A DNA stretch of 64,000 nt from Geodermatophilus obscurus DSM 43160 (GTDB lineage: Bacteria; Actinomycetota; Actinomycetes; Mycobacteriales; Geodermatophilaceae), in contig NC_013757.1 of NCBI RefSeq assembly GCF_000025345.1, positions 2,914,001 through 2,978,000 on the forward strand, given 5' to 3'. Within the stretch, counting starts at the first letter, position 1. Every line of letters begins with the position of its first letter. Shown here piece after piece: positions 53,209 to 62,462 of this stretch. The notes beneath the pieces were generated by a model that ran no database searches, had not been told where the DNA came from, and was given only the letters and a program-made list of their open reading frames with translations. Position numbers and translations under genes: made by a program.

Positions 53209-54312
53209 ATGAGGATCGCAGAGATCCACGTCTACCGGCACGACCTGCCGGTCCTCGACGGCCCCTACGAGTTGGCCCTCGCAGAAGTCCGGTCCGTGTC
53301 CACGACGCTCGTCGAGCTGGTGGCCGACACCGGGCACGTCGGCTGGGGCGAGACGTGCCCGGTCGGGCCCACCTATGCCGAGTCCCACGCCGCCGGGGCC
53401 GTGGCGGCACTGAGCGAGATGGCGCCGGGACTGAGGGGCGCCGAGGTGCTGCCGATCCCGCTGCACCGGCGCATGGATGGCTTGCTCAACGGCCACAACT
53501 ACGCCAAGGCCGCCGTCGACATCGCCGCCCACGACCTCCTGGGCAAGCACCTCGGCGTCAGCGTGTCCGACCTCCTCGGCGGCGCAGTGACGGATCGGGT
53601 GCCGTCCTACTACTCCACCGGTGTCGGCCCGCCGGACGAGACCGCACGCCTGGCAGCGGAGAAACGCGCCGAGGGATACCCGCGCCTGCAGGTCAAGGTC
53701 GGTGGGCGGCCGGTCGAGGAGGACATCGAGACCATCCGCAAGGTCTGGGAGGCCATTCGCGGGTCGGGGATGCGTCTGGCGGTCGATGGCAACCGCAGCC
53801 TGACCACGCGCGATGCGCTGCGGCTCAGTCGGGAGTGCCCGGACATCCCCTTCATCATGGAGCAGCCCTGCAACACCATCGAGGACCTGCAGAAGATCCG
53901 CTCGCAGGTCAGTCACGGCATCTACATGGACGAGAACAGCACCAGCCTGAACACGGCGATCACCGCCGCGGGCACGGGACTGGTGGATGGCTTCGGCATG
54001 AAGGTCACCCGGATCGGTGGGCTGCACCCCATGCGCGCATTCCGCGACGTCTGCGCCGCACGGAACCTGCCGCACACCTGCGACGACTCCTGGGGCGGAG
54101 ACATCATCGCCGCCGCCTGCACCCACATCGGCGCGACGGTGGCACCTGAGCTCCTCGAAGGCGTCTGGCTGGCGGCCCCCTACATCGAGGGGCACTACGA
54201 CCCGGTGAACGGGATCCGCGCCGAAGGGGGCTACATCGAGCGACCGCAAGGCCCCGGCCTGGGCGTCACGCCCGATGCGGGCCTCTTCGGCGCTCCGGTG
54301 GCATCCTGCTGA
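53209..54312 (+). CDS. Enolase-superfamily dehydratase/epimerase (MLE group; hydroxyproline or proline-betaine type)
   Basis: This 367-residue protein has a capping domain and barrel. The acid/base Lys is in LQVKVGG, where the usual K-x-K begins with Gln. Metal ligands lie in LAVDGNRSL (Asp), [13 protein letters not shown] (Glu) and IYMDENST (Asp). The second Lys is in [16 protein letters not shown] and these spacings resemble cis-3-hydroxyproline dehydratase and the hydroxyproline-betaine epimerase HpbD. Neighbours for N-demethylation make the betaine role attractive. ATG 53209 follows AGGAG. Confidence 0.82.
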
Positions 54313-54519: not shown

Positions 54520-56553
54520 TCAGATCGCGCTGCACAGGCGGAAGGCGTCGAGCACGGCCGCGTGGATGTTGCGGCTGCTCACCGCGTCGCCCACGCGGTA
54601 GATGCGGAACCGGCCGTCCTCGTTGTGGGTCGGCGACTGGGGCGACAGGGCCAGGAGCTCCGTGGTGTCGATCTCGCCCCAGTTGATCGACGCGTCCACG
54701 AGTGCGTCGTAGAGATCGGTCACGGGCAGCGTTCCGTGCTCGATCACGATGGTGTCGACGTACCGCTCGATCGACCGTCGAGCACCGTCCACGGCGAACG
54801 TCGCCTTGAGTCGTCCGTCCGAGCGTTCGACGCGGACCAGGCGATGAGCCGGCGTCAGCGTCACGTCGTGCTCGGCGAGCATCTGCAGGTAGCCGGCCAT
54901 CGTCAGCGCACCGACGTCCGGCGAGATGGTGCGCTCCGGGGTGACCAGTTCGACCGAGGCCGCGGCGGGCGCGACCATCTCGATGGCGTCGAGCGCCTGG
55001 TGCCCTCCGTGGTCGTCGTAGACGAGCACGTCGCCGGTGGGCCTGAGCGCTCCCGACATGACGTCCCACGAGTCGACCGCGAGGTGGCTGCCCTCGGCGA
55101 CCTCGACGTCGGGCAGCCCACCGGTCGCGACGACGATGACGCGGAAGTCCCCGTCGACGAGCTCGCCCGGCTCCACGAAGTGGTTGAGCTCGAGGTCGAC
55201 ACCGAGCCGCTTGCACTCCTCGATCCGCCAGTCGACGATCCCGATCAGGTCACGTCGCCGCGGGGACTTCGCCGCGAGGGCGATCTGGCCGCCCAGGCTC
55301 GGGTTCGCCTCGAAGAGGACGACCTCGTGCCCTCGTTCGGCGAGGGTCCGAGCGGCTTCCAGTCCCGCGGGTCCACCGCCGACGACGGCGACCTTCTCTC
55401 GCTCGGCCGCCCGGCGGACCGTGTGCGGGAGGCGCAGTTCCCGGCCGGTCGACGGGTTGTGGGCGCACATGGCCGACCCGGAGCTGTAGATGCCGTCGAT
55501 GCACATGTTGGCGCCGACGCAGGGGCGGATCCGGTCCGTCTGCCGGGCGGCGACCTTGTTCGGGAGGTGAGGGTCCGCGATCAACGCCCGGGTCATCCCG
55601 ACCAGGTCCACGAGGCCCCCCGTGACGGCGTACCGCGCAGTCGCCACATCACCGATCTTGGCGGCGTGCATGACCGGCACGTCGACGTTCTCCTTGACCC
55701 AGCCGGTGAACGCCAGGTGCGGCGCCGCCGGCGTGCCCATCGGCGGGATCACCTGCGCCAGCTCGGCGTCGGTGTCGATGAACCCCTTGATCACGCTGAA
55801 GAAGTCGATGCCCGCACCGGTCAGCTCGCGCGCGATCCGCAGGGCCTCGTCGGCCTGGAGGCCGTCGCTGCGGCCCTCGTCGAAGGTCATGCGCACGCCG
55901 ACGACGAACTCCTCCCCGACGGCGGCGCGGATGGCACTGACGACCTGGAGCGGGAAGCGCATGCGGTTCTCGAACGACCCTCCGTACTCGTCCTCGCGGC
56001 GATTCCGGGCCGGGGTCCAGAAGGCGTCCAGCAGGTGCCCGTAGGCCATGAGCTCGATGCCGTCCAGTCCCCCGTCCTTGCACCGCACGGCCGCGTCGGC
56101 GAAGTTCCGGACGATGCGGTCGAGATCCCGTCGGTCCGCCGGCCGCGTGAACGCCCGGTGCGAGGACTCCCGGAGGGCGCTGACCGACAGTGCCGGTAGC
56201 CAGTCGTGGGTGTAGTTGCTGGTCCGGTGGCCGAGGTGGGTCAGCTGGGTCATGACCGCGGTGCCGTGTTCGTGGACCTCGTCCGCGAGACGACGCAGCA
56301 GCGGGACCGCTTCGTCCTTGAACAGCTGCAGGTTGCCGAACGCCGGTGCGCTCTCCGGGCTGACGATGGCGCTCCCGCCGATCATCGTGAGTCCGACCCC
56401 GCCCCTCGCCTTCTCGACGTGATAGGCCCGGTACCGGTCACCGGGGAGCCCGTCCTCGCTGTACGCGGGTTCGTGGGACGTGCTGACGATCCGGTTGCGC
56501 AACGTGACGTTCTTGAGCGTGAAGGGGCTCAGCAGCGGGTCTGCGGACTGCAC
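54520..56553 (-). CDS. Flavin-dependent N-demethylase (DgcA/N-methylproline demethylase-like, TMADH family)
   Basis: This 677-residue enzyme has an N-terminal old-yellow-enzyme FMN barrel (1 to about 370, YGGSFENRMRFPL). A Cys-rich segment RPCVGANMCIDGI...MCAHNP follows, then an FAD/NAD-like domain (VAVVGGGPAGLEAARTLAERG, about 395-415) as in trimethylamine dehydrogenase. It should remove methyl groups from N,N-dimethylglycine or N-methylproline. In the Cys motif the position of the second Cys of C-x2-C-x2-C is Ala. This may be normal for the subgroup or may mean an altered iron-sulphur cluster. Confidence 0.85.
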   Translation of the reverse strand: MQSADPLLSPFTLKNVTLRNRIVSTSHEPAYSEDGLPGDRYRAYHVEKARGGVGLTMIGGSAIVSPESAPAFGNLQLFKDEAVPLLRRLADEVHEHGTAVMTQLTHLGHRTSNYTHDWLPALSVSALRESSHRAFTRPADRRDLDRIVRNFADAAVRCKDGGLDGIELMAYGHLLDAFWTPARNRREDEYGGSFENRMRFPLQVVSAIRAAVGEEFVVGVRMTFDEGRSDGLQADEALRIARELTGAGIDFFSVIKGFIDTDAELAQVIPPMGTPAAPHLAFTGWVKENVDVPVMHAAKIGDVATARYAVTGGLVDLVGMTRALIADPHLPNKVAARQTDRIRPCVGANMCIDGIYSSGSAMCAHNPSTGRELRLPHTVRRAAEREKVAVVGGGPAGLEAARTLAERGHEVVLFEANPSLGGQIALAAKSPRRRDLIGIVDWRIEECKRLGVDLELNHFVEPGELVDGDFRVIVVATGGLPDVEVAEGSHLAVDSWDVMSGALRPTGDVLVYDDHGGHQALDAIEMVAPAAASVELVTPERTISPDVGALTMAGYLQMLAEHDVTLTPAHRLVRVERSDGRLKATFAVDGARRSIERYVDTIVIEHGTLPVTDLYDALVDASINWGEIDTTELLALSPQSPTHNEDGRFRIYRVGDAVSSRNIHAAVLDAFRLCSAI

Positions 56554-56721
56554 GGGTGCCTCCAGGAGCAGCGGCGGCCGACGGCGTCTTCCAGGCCAGC
56601 GGGCCCCGGGCCGTCGGGGGGAAGAGTGCAGCGGCCTCCATCGGTCCGGTAGTACGACGTCCGGACCCGGACCGGGCGTGAGTCACCGAGTTACACTGCG
56701 CACCTACGGTCGAGGAGCCAG

Positions 56722-58284
56722 GTGAGCGATCGGCAGTTCGAGGCCCTGTCGCGGGACGTCGACGAGGCGGTCCGCCGGCGTGCCCGACTGGTGCAGGACG
56801 TGCTGTCGCTCGGGCCCGCGCGGGCTGCCCGGGCACACGGCGTCACCAGGCAGACCGCCTCGAAGTGGGCGCAGCGGTACCGCACGGGCGGAGCAGCACA
56901 GCTGAGCCGGCCCGCCCACCGACGCCGGACGACGGAGGAGCTCAGGCACGCCGTCCTCACCGCGCCGCTGTGGATGCCCACCACCAAGTGGTCGAGTCGT
57001 TCCATCGCTGACGCCCTCGGTGTCAGCCAGTCCTTCGTGGCGCGCGCATGGGAGGCCATGCGGTCCGGCACCGCAGTCAGCGAGGACCTGACCGCCGCGA
57101 CCGCCGGGCGTCGACCGGAGGTCCTCGGCCTCCTGGTGACGGCGGAGCACGCCGTCCTGGCCCTGCAGCTCCTGCGCCCGCCCGGACGGGAGGACCCCGC
57201 CCCACCGCCACGCGTCGACCCGGCGGTGCACCGGTCGCTGCGCACGGTCCTGGCGTCCGACCTGGTCCGCCGCGAGGTCCCGGCGACTCCCACCACCGGT
57301 ACGGAGCCGTTCTGGGACGAGGTGGTGAACGCCGCCGACCCGGACGCGACCCTGATGACCCTGGAGTCCCAGGCGGCTCCCGTGCCGGCCGAGGTGCCGG
57401 TTCGAGGGGTGTGCCGGGACGTCGACGAGTGGCTCTCCCTCTTCCCGGTCCTCGTCGGCTGGGGGCCGCTGCTCTCCCCCGCTCCGGCACTGCAGCTGGA
57501 GGGCGAACTGCGCTCGTGGGCACGGGAGCCCCGCCGCGCGTTCACCTGGGTGCGCCCCGCCACCGGGGCGGCACGGAGCCCCGGATCCGCGGCCCGGCCC
57601 CCGATGCGTCACCTGGGACCGGAACGAGTTCTCGCCGACGAGATCGTCGCGGCCATCCGGCAGGGCATCGCGGAGGGCCGGATCGCCGGTGGGGACCGCG
57701 TCACCGAACGCTCCCTGGCGGGTCGGTTGCGGACGTCGCGGGCCCAGGTCAGGACGGCGATGCGACTGCTGGAGAGGGACGGCCTGCTCACGATCACGAC
57801 GGGGCACGCGGCGGTGGTCCCCGTCGTGACGACGAACGACGTCGTCGAGACGTACGCCGCCCGGCGCGCGCTGGGAGCCCTGGTGATGCGAGCCGCCGTC
57901 CGGTGGTCCCCGCAGGAGCGGCAGTCGGTCGGGGAGTCGCTGGACGCGCTGGAACGGTGCGCCGCGACCGGCGACGTCCACCGGACCGGCGAGGCGGACA
58001 TCGCGTTCCAGAACGCCCTCGCCGAAGCCTCGGGCCTGGTCCGCATCGCGCCCATGCTGGAGGTCCTGGCGGACCACCTGCGCATGTTCATCGCCGTGAT
58101 GGGGCTGGACTACGCCTACCCGATCGATGCGATCCTCCGTGACGATCGCGCCATCTTCGAGGCCATCGACTCCGGCGACGGCGAGGCCGCGGCGGAACGG
58201 TGGCGCGTCAAGATCGACGACGCCGCCACCTACATGCTCGGACAGCTCGCTGCCGCCAGAGCGCGGCCCAGCGGGAGCACGTGA
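56722..58284 (+). CDS. Chimeric regulator: IS630-like transposase N-terminal half fused to GntR-FCD regulator
   Basis: This 520-residue protein has two halves. Residues about 15-115 hold two helix-turn-helix units like those of IS630-type transposases (SLGPARAARAHGVTRQTASKWA and IADALGVSQSFVARAWEAMR, shown split). Residues about 125-285 look like the following DDE region, but where a transposase has VDEKS it reads LGLLVTAEHAVLALQLLR. Residues about 300-372 are a GntR winged helix (LAGRLRTSRAQVRTAMRLLE) and 380-510 an FCD domain. GTG 56722 follows GAGGAG. It sits between the demethylase and the BCCT transporter and probably regulates the island. Confidence 0.75.
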   Translation: MSDRQFEALSRDVDEAVRRRARLVQDVLSLGPARAARAHGVTRQTASKWAQRYRTGGAAQLSRPAHRRRTTEELRHAVLTAPLWMPTTKWSSRSIADALGVSQSFVARAWEAMRSGTAVSEDLTAATAGRRPEVLGLLVTAEHAVLALQLLRPPGREDPAPPPRVDPAVHRSLRTVLASDLVRREVPATPTTGTEPFWDEVVNAADPDATLMTLESQAAPVPAEVPVRGVCRDVDEWLSLFPVLVGWGPLLSPAPALQLEGELRSWAREPRRAFTWVRPATGAARSPGSAARPPMRHLGPERVLADEIVAAIRQGIAEGRIAGGDRVTERSLAGRLRTSRAQVRTAMRLLERDGLLTITTGHAAVVPVVTTNDVVETYAARRALGALVMRAAVRWSPQERQSVGESLDALERCAATGDVHRTGEADIAFQNALAEASGLVRIAPMLEVLADHLRMFIAVMGLDYAYPIDAILRDDRAIFEAIDSGDGEAAAERWRVKIDDAATYMLGQLAAARARPSGST

Positions 58285-58447: not shown

Positions 58448-58496
58448 TTGACAGTGGTCCACGTAGCACTGTTTCGTGTGGCGCTACCGAAGCGCC
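58448..58496 (+). promoter_or_regulatory. Promoter and short palindrome before the BCCT gene
   Basis: TTGACA (58448-58453) is a perfect -35. TTTCGT 18 bases later is a poor -10. GGCGCT-ACCGA-AGCGCC (58480-58496) forms a 6-bp palindrome just downstream, a possible operator for the chimeric regulator or the IclR protein. Confidence 0.5.
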
Positions 58497-58517: not shown

Positions 58518-60320
58518 ATGAGCCCCGACGACCCCGAGCGCGCCACCCCTGCCGCTCCCCGAGACCCCCGGGAGCACACCCGAGCCGCCGACGGCGACGT
58601 GACGGTCGAGGAGACGGTCCTCGTCACCCCCCGCTACGTCCACGCCGCGCCCGATGACGACCGGATGCACCCGCGAGCCGCCGACGTGGACCACCCGGTC
58701 GACAGGACCGTCTTCGTCACCGGCCTCGCTGTGACCGTGGCGTTCGTGCTCTGGGGTGTGCTCTCGCCGACGTCGTTGGCCACGGCTGCCTCCTCGGTCC
58801 TGGCGAAGATGATCGACGCCACCGGCTGGGTGTACGTGCTCGTGACGGTCGGCTTCGTCGCGCTCATGCTGCTGCTCGCGCTCTCGCGCTACGGGCGGAT
58901 CCGGTTGGGCCGCGACGACGAGCGGCCGGAGTTCAGCACCGTCTCCTGGATCTCGATGATGTTCGCCACCGGGATGGGCATCGGGCTGATCTTCTGGGGC
59001 GTCGCCGAGCCGCTGTCGCACCTGCTCACGCCGCCGTTGGGGCTCGTCGAGGCCGCGACGCCGGAGTCCGCCCAGCTCGGCATGGAGTACACGATCTTCC
59101 ACTGGGGCCTGCACCCGTGGGCGCTGTACGGCGTCGTCGGGCTCGCCCTGGCCTACGCGACGTTCCGCAAGGGCCTGCCCAACCTGCTCAGCTCGATCGT
59201 CTTCCCGCGGAAGGACCCCGCGCACCCTGCCCGCCGGGCCGTCGACATCTTCGGCCTGTTCATCACCACCTTCGGGGCGGCCACGTCCCTGGGGCTGGGC
59301 GCCCTCCAGATCAACAGCGGGCTGACGCGGGTCTTCGACGCCCCCCAGAGCAACACCGTCTCCATCGTGGTGATCGTCGTGCTGACCGCCCTGTTCGTGG
59401 TCTCCGCGGTCAGTGGCACCGAGCGGGGTATCAAGTGGCTGGCGAACACCAACGCCGGGTTGGCCGTCGGGATCCTGGTCTTCGTGTTCGCCTTCGGGCC
59501 CACGATCTTCCTGATGAACACCTTCGTCGAGTCCTTCGGCGGCTACCTGGCTCACTTCGTGCCCATGTCGTTCCGCACCGGTGCCAATGGTGGCGGCGAG
59601 TGGCTCGCCGGCTGGACGATCTTCTACTGGGCGTGGTGGATGTCGTGGGCCCCGTTCGTGGGCACCTTCATGGCCCGGATCTCCCGAGGGCGGACGATCC
59701 GCGAGTTCGTGATCTGCGTGTTGATCGTCCCGACCCTGGTCAGCACCGTCTGGTTCGTGGTGATGGGTGGCACCGCCATCCGGTTCCAGCTGAGCGGGGT
59801 CACGGACATGGCCGCGTCACTGGACACCGGCGTCGAGAACACCCTGTTCGCCATGCTCGACGCGATGCCGTTCTCGACGCTCACCGCGGTGCTCGTCGTC
59901 GTCCTGATCATGCTGTTCTACGTCGCCGGAGCCGACGCGGCGTCCCTGGTGCTCGGGATGCTCTCCCAGGGCGGCTCGCTCCACCCCCGGACCTGGCTGG
60001 TGGTGACGTGGGGATCGATGATCGGCGCGGTCGCGATCGCCCTGCTGCTCGCCGGAGGTCTGGAAGCGATCCAGACCACGGTGATCGTGATCGGGGTCCC
60101 GTTCCTGGTCGTCATGCTCGGTGTCTGCTACAGCCTGCTCAAGCAACTGCGCAGCGAGCCGGTGGTCACCACGGTCCCGCCTGGTGTCCGCACGGTGGTC
60201 GCGGAGATGCGATCGAACACGGTCCAGCCGGACCCGGCCCAGCAGCCGACGCCGGCCGGCCCCGAGAACGGCGCCGCCGCTCCCACCCGCGAACCGACGG
60301 CGTCACAGACACCGACCTGA
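58518..60320 (+). CDS. BCCT-family betaine/carnitine/choline transporter
   Basis: This 600-residue symporter has 12 membrane helices. The Trp-rich box in TM8 and the following loop (FYWAWWMSWAPFVGTF, then ISRGRTIREF) are diagnostic, and GMGIGLIFWGVAEPLSH is in TM3. Such carriers import quaternary amines such as glycine betaine or proline betaine. An N-terminal charged tail of about 65 residues and a C-terminal tail of about 45 lie outside the membrane. ATG 58518 follows GGAAGG. Its position in the island fits uptake of the betaine substrate. Confidence 0.93.
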   Translation: MSPDDPERATPAAPRDPREHTRAADGDVTVEETVLVTPRYVHAAPDDDRMHPRAADVDHPVDRTVFVTGLAVTVAFVLWGVLSPTSLATAASSVLAKMIDATGWVYVLVTVGFVALMLLLALSRYGRIRLGRDDERPEFSTVSWISMMFATGMGIGLIFWGVAEPLSHLLTPPLGLVEAATPESAQLGMEYTIFHWGLHPWALYGVVGLALAYATFRKGLPNLLSSIVFPRKDPAHPARRAVDIFGLFITTFGAATSLGLGALQINSGLTRVFDAPQSNTVSIVVIVVLTALFVVSAVSGTERGIKWLANTNAGLAVGILVFVFAFGPTIFLMNTFVESFGGYLAHFVPMSFRTGANGGGEWLAGWTIFYWAWWMSWAPFVGTFMARISRGRTIREFVICVLIVPTLVSTVWFVVMGGTAIRFQLSGVTDMAASLDTGVENTLFAMLDAMPFSTLTAVLVVVLIMLFYVAGADAASLVLGMLSQGGSLHPRTWLVVTWGSMIGAVAIALLLAGGLEAIQTTVIVIGVPFLVVMLGVCYSLLKQLRSEPVVTTVPPGVRTVVAEMRSNTVQPDPAQQPTPAGPENGAAAPTREPTASQTPT

Positions 60321-60364
60321 CGCCCGGTGGACCCCTGCCCCGCACCTGCTGTGGGGAGCCGGTC

Positions 60365-61054
60365 GTGACCGGTACACCGGGCTCGTCGTTCCGCCAGGCC
60401 ACCAGACCCGGGTACGACGTGCCGCGGTCGGTCGCGTCGGCCCGGACCCGCGAGGCACAGCCCGAGGTGGACGCCGCGCTGGTCCGTACCCACGCTGCGC
60501 TGCACCGCCATGATCTGGCAGCTGCGCTGCTCGTCGGCCCGGTGGACACCCGGTACGTCTCCGGGACCTCCACCATGCCGGTCTGGACGCTGCACGTGAC
60601 CGACCGGTACGTGCTGGTGCCGGCCGAGGGCGAGCCGATCCTGTGGGCGTACGCGTCGGCACCGCTCGAGCTAGTGTCTCCGCATCCGCACCTCGAGACC
60701 CGGACGGCGACGAGCTGGTCGGGCTTCGGGTCTGCGGAGCGAGCCCAGGACCGAGCCGAGCGGTTCGCGGCGGAGGTGGCCGACGCGCTGCGGGAGCGTG
60801 GGATCCACGACGCCCGGATCGGGGTGGAGAGACTCGACGGGTACGGGTTCCTGGCCCTTCAGACGGCCGGTCCGCACCTCAAACCGGTACAGCTGGCGAT
60901 CGAGCAGGCGCGAGCCACGAAGGGCGCGGCGGAGCTCGAGCTCATCCGCCGGTCGGTGCGCGTCTGCGACGCGGCGATGACCCACCTGCACCTGGCTTTC
61001 CGGCACCGCACGATGAGCAGCCGTCCGGCGTCTGACGGGCTCCCGAGCTCTTGA
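60365..61054 (+). pseudogene. M24 (creatinase/Xaa-Pro peptidase-like) protein, N-terminal domain only
   Basis: The 229 codons give the creatinase N-terminal domain (LVGPVDTRYVSGTSTMPVWT, then LALQTAGPHLKPVQL and ATKGAAELELIRRSVRVCDA). They end where the pita-bread catalytic domain should begin, with unrelated residues HRTMSSRPASDGLPSS. Full proteins have about 390-420 residues, so all metal ligands are absent. GTG 60365 follows GGGGAG. It was probably a hydrolase for an N-methylated or cyclic compound in the betaine island. It is now truncated, or the assembly has a deletion. Confidence 0.75.
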
Positions 61055-61199: not shown

Positions 61200-62462
61200 A
61201 TGACCGTGCAGCTCGAGCGCCCCGCCGGTCCCGACGTGGTCGACCTGGTGGCGCGTCGTGTTCCCGGGTACAGCCTGGAGGCGCCCTTCTACACGAGTCA
61301 GGAGGTCTTCGACCTGGACGTGCGCGCGATCTTCGCCGCGCACTGGCTCTTCGCGGCCGCCGAGGCGGAACTCCCCGAACCGGGCGACTTCGTCACCGTC
61401 GCGGTGGGCAGCTACTCCGTGATCATCGTGCGGGACGACGACGAGGAGCTGCGTGCCTTCCACAACGTGTGCCGGCACCGCGGCTCCCGGCTCCTCGACG
61501 AGCCGCGCGGCAGCGTCGGGAACCTCGTCTGCCCCTACCACCACTGGACCTACGGCGTCGACGGTCGCCTGCTGCACGCCGACAACCAGCCGGCCTCGTT
61601 CGACCGCAGCTGCTTCAGCCTCAGGCCGGTCCACCTGCGCAGCATCGGCGGTCTGGTGTTCCTGTGCCTCGCCCATGACCCACCGGCCGACTTCGACGAG
61701 GTCGCCGCGCGCATCGAGCCCTTCCTGGCCCCGTACGGGCTACGTCGGGCGAAGGTCGCCCACCAGGACGACATCGTCGAGACCGGCAACTGGAAGCTCG
61801 TCATGGAGAACAACCGCGAGTGCTACCACTGCGACGGCCACCCCGAGCTGGTGAGCGCCTACTTCCCCCTGTTCGGCTACTCGCGCGAGGACCTCCCGCC
61901 GCGGCTGCGGCCCGTCTACCAGCGCTACGACGAGGCCGCCGCCGCGCTCCGGTCGGCGTGCGTCCGGCAGGGCTTCCCGGTCGAGGGAGCTCGGGAACTC
62001 GACACACGCGCCACGGGGTTCCAGCTCTCCCACGCCCCGCTCGACGGTGCCGGCAAGTCGTTCAACACGAACGGCGAGTCGGTGTGCAGCAGGCTCATGG
62101 GGTCCATGACCACCGACCGCTTCGGTGACCTGTCCCTGCACGTGCAGCCGAACTCGTGGTTCCACGTGCTGGCCGACCACGCGGTGGTGTTCTCCGTGCT
62201 GCCGCTCGCCCCCGACCGGACCCTCCTGCGGACGACGTGGCTGGTCCACCCGGACGCGGTGGAGGGCGTGGACTACGACGTGCCCACCCTGACCAGGGTC
62301 TGGCAGGCGACGAACCAGCAGGACGGGACCCTGGTGGCCCGCACCCAGAGGGGTGTCGAGGACCCCGGTTACCAGCCGGGCCCGTACTCGACGGTCGAGG
62401 GGGACGTCGAGGCCTTCGTCACCTGGTACGTCTCCCGGCTGGCCGCTCACCTGTCCCGCTAG
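61200..62462 (+). CDS. Rieske betaine N-demethylase oxygenase (GbcA/stachydrine demethylase-like)
   Basis: This 420-residue oxygenase has a Rieske centre C-R-H...C-P-Y-H (NVCRHRGSRLL, LVCPYHHWTYG; about 87-110). The catalytic iron site with NRECYHCDGHPEL (His pair) lies near 205-215. These are the patterns of glycine-betaine monooxygenase GbcA and stachydrine demethylase Stc2, which remove one methyl as formaldehyde. The reductase partner begins at 63489 after an IclR gene. ATG 61200 follows AGGAG. Confidence 0.9.
   Translation: MTVQLERPAGPDVVDLVARRVPGYSLEAPFYTSQEVFDLDVRAIFAAHWLFAAAEAELPEPGDFVTVAVGSYSVIIVRDDDEELRAFHNVCRHRGSRLLDEPRGSVGNLVCPYHHWTYGVDGRLLHADNQPASFDRSCFSLRPVHLRSIGGLVFLCLAHDPPADFDEVAARIEPFLAPYGLRRAKVAHQDDIVETGNWKLVMENNRECYHCDGHPELVSAYFPLFGYSREDLPPRLRPVYQRYDEAAAALRSACVRQGFPVEGARELDTRATGFQLSHAPLDGAGKSFNTNGESVCSRLMGSMTTDRFGDLSLHVQPNSWFHVLADHAVVFSVLPLAPDRTLLRTTWLVHPDAVEGVDYDVPTLTRVWQATNQQDGTLVARTQRGVEDPGYQPGPYSTVEGDVEAFVTWYVSRLAAHLSR

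Follow-up and report, generated by a model that had tools for sequence, protein, structure and literature searches.

The fused gene lies at 56722-58284 on the forward strand of the window (the whole 64,000-nucleotide stretch of Geodermatophilus obscurus DSM 43160 DNA analysed here), where it forms an uninterrupted frame. GC fractions of 0.76/0.56/0.90 at the three codon positions indicate coding-like codon use; together with the full-length orthologues, this agrees with the single 520-codon gene proposed in the earlier note. The gene and its parts are as follows.

56722-58284, forward strand: whole fused gene, 520 codons, GTG start (orthologues L001-L004, L166, L170, L173, L174, L253, L256)
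56767-56940, forward strand: first IS630-type helix-turn-helix (HTH), residues 16-73, matching HTH_28/23/29
56932-57066, forward strand: second IS630-type HTH, residues ~71-115, HTH_32-like, WSSRSIADALGVSQSFVARAW resembling WSSRSMARASGLSQSTVSRMW
57067-57486, forward strand: degenerate remainder of the DDE domain (RNase H-like type), residues 116-255, D-D-E triad unrecognisable
57487-57561, forward strand: IS630 C-terminus remnant, LEGELRSWAREPRRAFTWVRPA resembling LEADIRRWINSWNKDPKPFVWAKTA
57562-57621, forward strand: variable linker, residues 281-300, pN/pS 1.0, pLDDT <50
57631-57819, forward strand: GntR winged helix, residues 304-366, Pfam match and PDB matches at Z ~19-20
57847-58206, forward strand: FCD effector-binding domain, residues 376-495, Pfam and PDB matches

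The C-terminal half is a complete regulator of the GntR-FCD type, as had been described from the sequence. GntR (PF00392) is matched at 3e-12 (46.5 bits against a cut-off of 27) and is followed by the all-helical FCD domain (PF07729) at 3e-15 (57.1 bits against 24.3); searched against the PDB, this half gives Z of about 17-20, with FadR, VanR/Atu1419, VanR/AlkR and McbR among the matches. The two HTH units that had been noticed at the N-terminus were also recovered, with HTH_28, HTH_23 and HTH_29 passing their cut-offs at residues 16-73 and HTH_32 falling under its cut-off at residues 45-110. In the structure model, the first HTH comprises helices 15-30, 32-39 and 43-56. Residues 115-300 have zero Pfam matches.

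The betaine neighbourhood and candidate control sites

The neighbouring genes are predicted to serve betaine uptake and demethylation, most of their names being taken from matches under curated cut-offs. The placement in a betaine catabolism cluster suggested earlier is upheld by the BCCT, GbcA-like Rieske and OYE neighbours, and the pathway substrate may be any of glycine betaine, proline betaine or hydroxyproline betaine. The relevant genes and sites are listed below.

53209-54312, forward strand: mandelate-racemase (enolase-superfamily) enzyme near cis-3-hydroxy-L-proline dehydratase (NF043002, E 4e-70, under cut-off)
54520-56553, reverse strand: divergent OYE-type FMN oxidoreductase, a likely target (divergent pair retained beside L256)
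56644-56666, unstranded: candidate operator between the regulator and OYE genes, GTCCGG-N11-CCGGAC overlapping a GntR-like CGGTAGTACCG
58448-58477, unstranded: conserved block in the BCCT promoter region, TTGACAGTGGTCCA...CACTGTTTCGT (ACAGTG-N10-CACTGT)
58518-60320, forward strand: BCCT betaine transporter (NF047988, PF02028), a likely target
61200-62462, forward strand: Rieske oxygenase near glycine betaine monooxygenase GbcA (NF058607, E 2e-126, under model cut-off)

The gene neighbourhood is fixed in all orthologues, which speaks against mobility. In the orthologous locus of a second Geodermatophilaceae genus (L166), a GbcB-like reductase is additionally encoded. More distant fused relatives come from another genus of the class, one with large genomes and probably Streptomyces (g58 hereafter). 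At one of these loci, L170, a GbcA-like protein and a related enzyme of the enolase superfamily are encoded, along with a divergently oriented gene of the trans-3-hydroxyproline dehydratase/proline racemase type, and two others (L173 and L174) lie near sarcosine-oxidase-like and glyA-like genes, as named from translated sequence. Because betaine or hydroxyproline genes neighbour the g58 forms too, the link to the catabolism of N-methylated amino acids is conserved.

With regard to control sites, the candidate palindrome at 56644-56666 is kept in six orthologous loci, with substitutions. The BCCT promoter block was also considered as an operator of the fused regulator and was dropped, since a Geodermatophilus genome that lacks the regulator (G002) has the same block (L246, 7696), upstream of a BCCT gene (L246 7766-9541, forward strand) almost identical to that of L004. 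The block is therefore not assignable to the fused regulator, and it may represent a core promoter only.

Two further observations were made in these clusters. An M24-peptidase-like gene (60301-61054, forward strand) is truncated in the window and apparently in L001, with lengths of 425-441 aa in L004 and L166. Additionally, the betaine cluster of another genome (G017) contains transposase-like genes between the GbcA-like and IclR genes (L248 11056-12891), and one pair of these resembles IS630 in translated sequence.

Relationship of the N-terminal half to IS630 transposases

Comparison with intact IS630 proteins indicates that residues 1-280 are derived from a transposase of this family. The HTH pair aligns with the corresponding region of intact proteins (WSSRSIADALGVSQSFVARAW with WSSRSMARASGLSQSTVSRMW; profile match 98.7%), and the far end can be aligned as well (LEGELRSWAREPRRAFTWVRPA with LEADIRRWINSWNKDPKPFVWAKTA), with W276 kept in at least 90% of 20 dead transposase halves. 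The intervening region was compared with a profile built from 37 intact IS630 DDE domains from which the HTHs had been removed. With this profile, matches were obtained to the fused g58 protein L170 (E 6e-23; shuffles at most 2.8 bits) and to two stand-alone dead proteins, L055 (7e-23; shuffles at most 6.0 bits) and L177 (2.5e-14; shuffles at most 1.7 bits). Pooled g58 middles match the intact DDE domain with 98.7% probability in a profile comparison.

For the window protein's own middle, the DDE profile gives no match, and profile comparison with intact DDE domains scores like shuffles. The Geodermatophilus middle does match the pooled dead middles, with a score of 35.0 against 18.6 for the best of 150 column shuffles. 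As a direct DDE match is absent, the IS630 origin of the window middle is demonstrated via its relatives, and the IS630-derived N-terminal half proposed in the earlier note is accepted on this indirect route. The model search of residues 1-290 that had been suggested as a check succeeded in part: the HTHs were found, along with weak NCBIfam IS481/IS630 transposase matches confined to residues 19-114 (NF033545 reaches 29.7 bits, under its curated cut-off of 100), while the DDE domain was not matched directly. No known non-transposase domain, which would have spoken against a transposase origin, was found in this half.

When residues 1-290 were searched directly against solved structures, chance matches alone were returned, and a search with the full-length model returned matches to the GntR half only. 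A model of the N-terminal half built from dead sequences alone (mean pLDDT 79) proceeds from two HTH bundles to two strands, helices, two further strands and a C-terminal helix. With this model, the top of the Foldseek list consists mostly of transposases (Mos1, the SETMAR transposase domain, TnsB, MuA and IstA) at E 0.02-0.3; structure searches with it gave zero significant matches and none exceeding Z 6.

Since the window protein by itself matches HTH models only, the HTHs could in principle have come from a non-transposase regulator, with the IS630 likeness reflecting a general likeness among HTHs. The match, however, covers the two HTHs in the order found in IS630 proteins and, in the relatives, continues through the DDE region to the PFVW end, making such an origin very improbable.

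The strand VLALQLLR, from which the catalytic Asp had been reported missing, indeed occupies the position of VVGLYLxPPxxAxVLCVDEKSQ in intact IS630 proteins, and the D-E of the DEK motif is absent; in the alignment of the window protein with intact IS630, the triad residues cannot be placed. The extent of this loss differs among relatives. All three triad positions are lost in the alignment of L173 and L177, the first catalytic Asp is gone and the other two positions are retained in L055, and in L170 (6872-8812, forward strand) the aligned triad positions are occupied by D, D and E, although the surrounding motif is missing. Loss of catalysis is consequently not universal among the fused forms; the decay is graded, with L170 as a likely intermediate. 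Stand-alone dead copies are present too (L055, L177, L179 and L180), and several stages can thus be viewed side by side: intact IS630 proteins, stand-alone dead proteins, a fused form with three acidic triad positions (L170) and decayed fused forms. L055 (1276-2451, forward strand) adjoins a DUF4280/PAAR-like gene, named from its sequence alone.

Conservation, selection and proposed function

The full fusion is found in G. poikilotrophus, siccatus, sabuli and saharensis at 81-87% identity, and the second Geodermatophilaceae genus carries the whole fusion (L166) at 78% identity. Within Geodermatophilus, its distribution is patchy (5 of 26 genomes), and the fusion is therefore dispensable. The fused relatives in g58 are 29-36% identical along the whole protein; for example, L256 matches residues 20-512 of the window protein with 36% identity (E 3e-75). 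Full-length forms are present in 5 of 316 g58 genomes, with broken or truncated forms in at least three more. A tree of 35 GntR-FCD sequences groups the fused ones in a single clade (100/99). The g58 loci L254, L255 and L257 hold relatives in which the N-terminal half is swapped or absent, or the frame is broken.

In a comparison of six orthologues from Geodermatophilaceae, the HTH pair has a pN/pS of 0.19, GntR of 0.21 and FCD of 0.25, whereas the values are 0.63 in the dead middle, 0.44 in the C-terminal remnant and 1.0 in the linker. The transposase HTH pair is held as strictly as the regulator's own GntR domain, and the catalytic part drifts. A host domain and a transposase-derived DNA-binding-type domain are joined in one conserved frame under purifying selection, and the protein is accordingly a host-transposase fusion.

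Given how common IS630 elements are in these genomes, and given the broken relatives (L254, L255 and L257), the fusion might be functionless, that is, a recent insertion or an assembly error in which a decaying transposase reads into a GntR gene. This reading is extremely improbable: full-length open frames at 29-87% identity occur in many independent assemblies, and both halves are under purifying selection. Joining of two genes by assembly, which the earlier note had named as a possible refutation, was rejected on account of these full-length orthologues.

Homology shows that, in an ancestral actinobacterium, an IS630-family transposase became linked to a GntR-FCD regulator within one reading frame. 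Its catalytic centre subsequently decayed, and strong constraint was maintained on its two HTHs. In the proposed mechanism, the FCD domain, as in other members of its family, probably senses a metabolite, here one of the betaine pathway, and the FCD dimer would position the pair of GntR winged helices for binding to a palindromic operator. The transposase HTH pair would probably contact extra DNA beside the GntR operator, and this extra contact could either lengthen the site or join two sites, one controlling the OYE/regulator pair and one controlling the BCCT gene. The dead DDE region would most likely remain as a spacer or a minor dimer surface, and the targets would probably be the genes for betaine uptake and demethylation, repressed until the metabolite is present.

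Binding of a second operator element appears to be the likeliest function of the transposase half, because its HTH pair is constrained and is fused to regulators that retain their own HTH. The transposase half may instead have no specific DNA binding and serve for dimerisation, spacing or partner binding, leaving the GntR-FCD half alone to set the operators. FCD regulators do function without such an N-terminal half, and both the former catalytic region, despite its drift, and the C-terminal W motif are still present. The constraint, however, sits on the HTH pair rather than the middle and is as strong there as in the GntR helix, and WSSRSIADALGVSQSFVARAW is invariant apart from one substitution across the five Geodermatophilus proteins, such that this alternative is considered unlikely, if by no means negligible.

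The N-terminal half might also still read the terminal inverted repeats of IS630 elements, silencing or sensing them instead of, or besides, a role in betaine metabolism. The host genome carries IS630 copies, and PMC8327481 describes SETMAR as retaining a preference for transposon ends; against this, the betaine neighbourhood is maintained across genera, and a role directed at the elements is judged improbable. Overall, a host-transposase fusion regulator that controls betaine genes through its GntR-FCD half and an HTH pair on extra DNA is the favoured interpretation, held with somewhat better than even confidence.

Relation to known systems and other joined regulators

In vertebrates, it is accepted that transcription factors can arise by transposase capture. 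The window protein shares two N-terminal HTHs, a colinear middle and a C-terminal PF-W motif with the IS630/Tc1/mariner transposases. It differs from IS630 transposases in its lost triad, its shorter middle, its single copy in its genome, its fusion to a regulator and its fixed gene neighbourhood. With GntR-FCD regulators such as FadR, VanR/Atu1419 and McbR it shares the winged helix and FCD domain, whereas the 300-residue transposase-derived half before the winged helix sets it apart.

Vertebrate host-transposase fusions (SETMAR and others; PMC8327481 and PMC12062965) likewise combine a host domain with a transposase DNA-binding domain, of mariner type in SETMAR; the present fusion is bacterial, its transposase part is N-terminal, and its partner is a DNA-binding, metabolite-sensing regulator. 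The TldR nuclease-dead TnpB repressors (PMC13418256) are also transposon proteins turned into bacterial transcription factors, but they are RNA-guided, non-DDE and without a sensor fusion. Transcription factors adopted from mobile elements (Ner/SfsB, Xre and antitoxins) resemble the present case as mobile HTH proteins in metabolic regulation and differ in having been regulators from the outset; the passages found in a review of mobile-element genes recruited by prokaryotes (PMC8987985) do not name a DDE transposase that became a transcription factor. No capture of a bacterial DDE transposase into a sensor-coupled regulator was found in the literature searched (mostly without subscription papers), where such a conversion therefore seems to be undescribed. 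The system allows one to test how the DNA-binding domain of a mobile element turns into a metabolic switch, and to ask whether regulons are rewired via old transposon-end recognition.

The suggested survey of this architecture showed the same fusion in Geodermatophilaceae and g58, and similar modules on ROK and STAND-LuxR regulators. A tree of the 17 dead halves places every one of them on one side (96/99), but the branches are very long (that of the window group measures 3.2) and the two GntR groups are kept apart. In another class of the phylum, a protein of 1130 aa (L249 1940-5332, forward strand) combines an IS630-type HTH pair, matched by HTH_23/28/29/32, with a STAND ATPase-TPR-LuxR-HTH regulator, and it has no DDE remnant. 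The GntR-FCD, ROK and STAND-LuxR partners each retain their own HTH. These findings look like recurrent transposase capture in actinobacteria. A broader proposal, that actinobacteria repeatedly join an IS630-type module (with or without a dead DDE region) to GntR-FCD, ROK and STAND-LuxR regulators and so obtain two-specificity regulators whose second operator stems from transposon-end recognition, is offered tentatively, at slightly less than even confidence. Proteins labelled as transposase fragments or as plain GntR or ROK regulators may conceal a second DNA-binding module.

Among g58 genomes, a dead IS630-type half precedes a complete ROK regulator in at least 8 of 199, with the best 10 candidates per genome considered. 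These fusions include L178 5111-7357, L167 5683-7860 and L168 5641-7848 (all reverse strand) and L172 5653-8646 (forward strand), and these four, among the ROK loci whose neighbours were read, have a GH38 alpha-mannosidase gene near the fusion.
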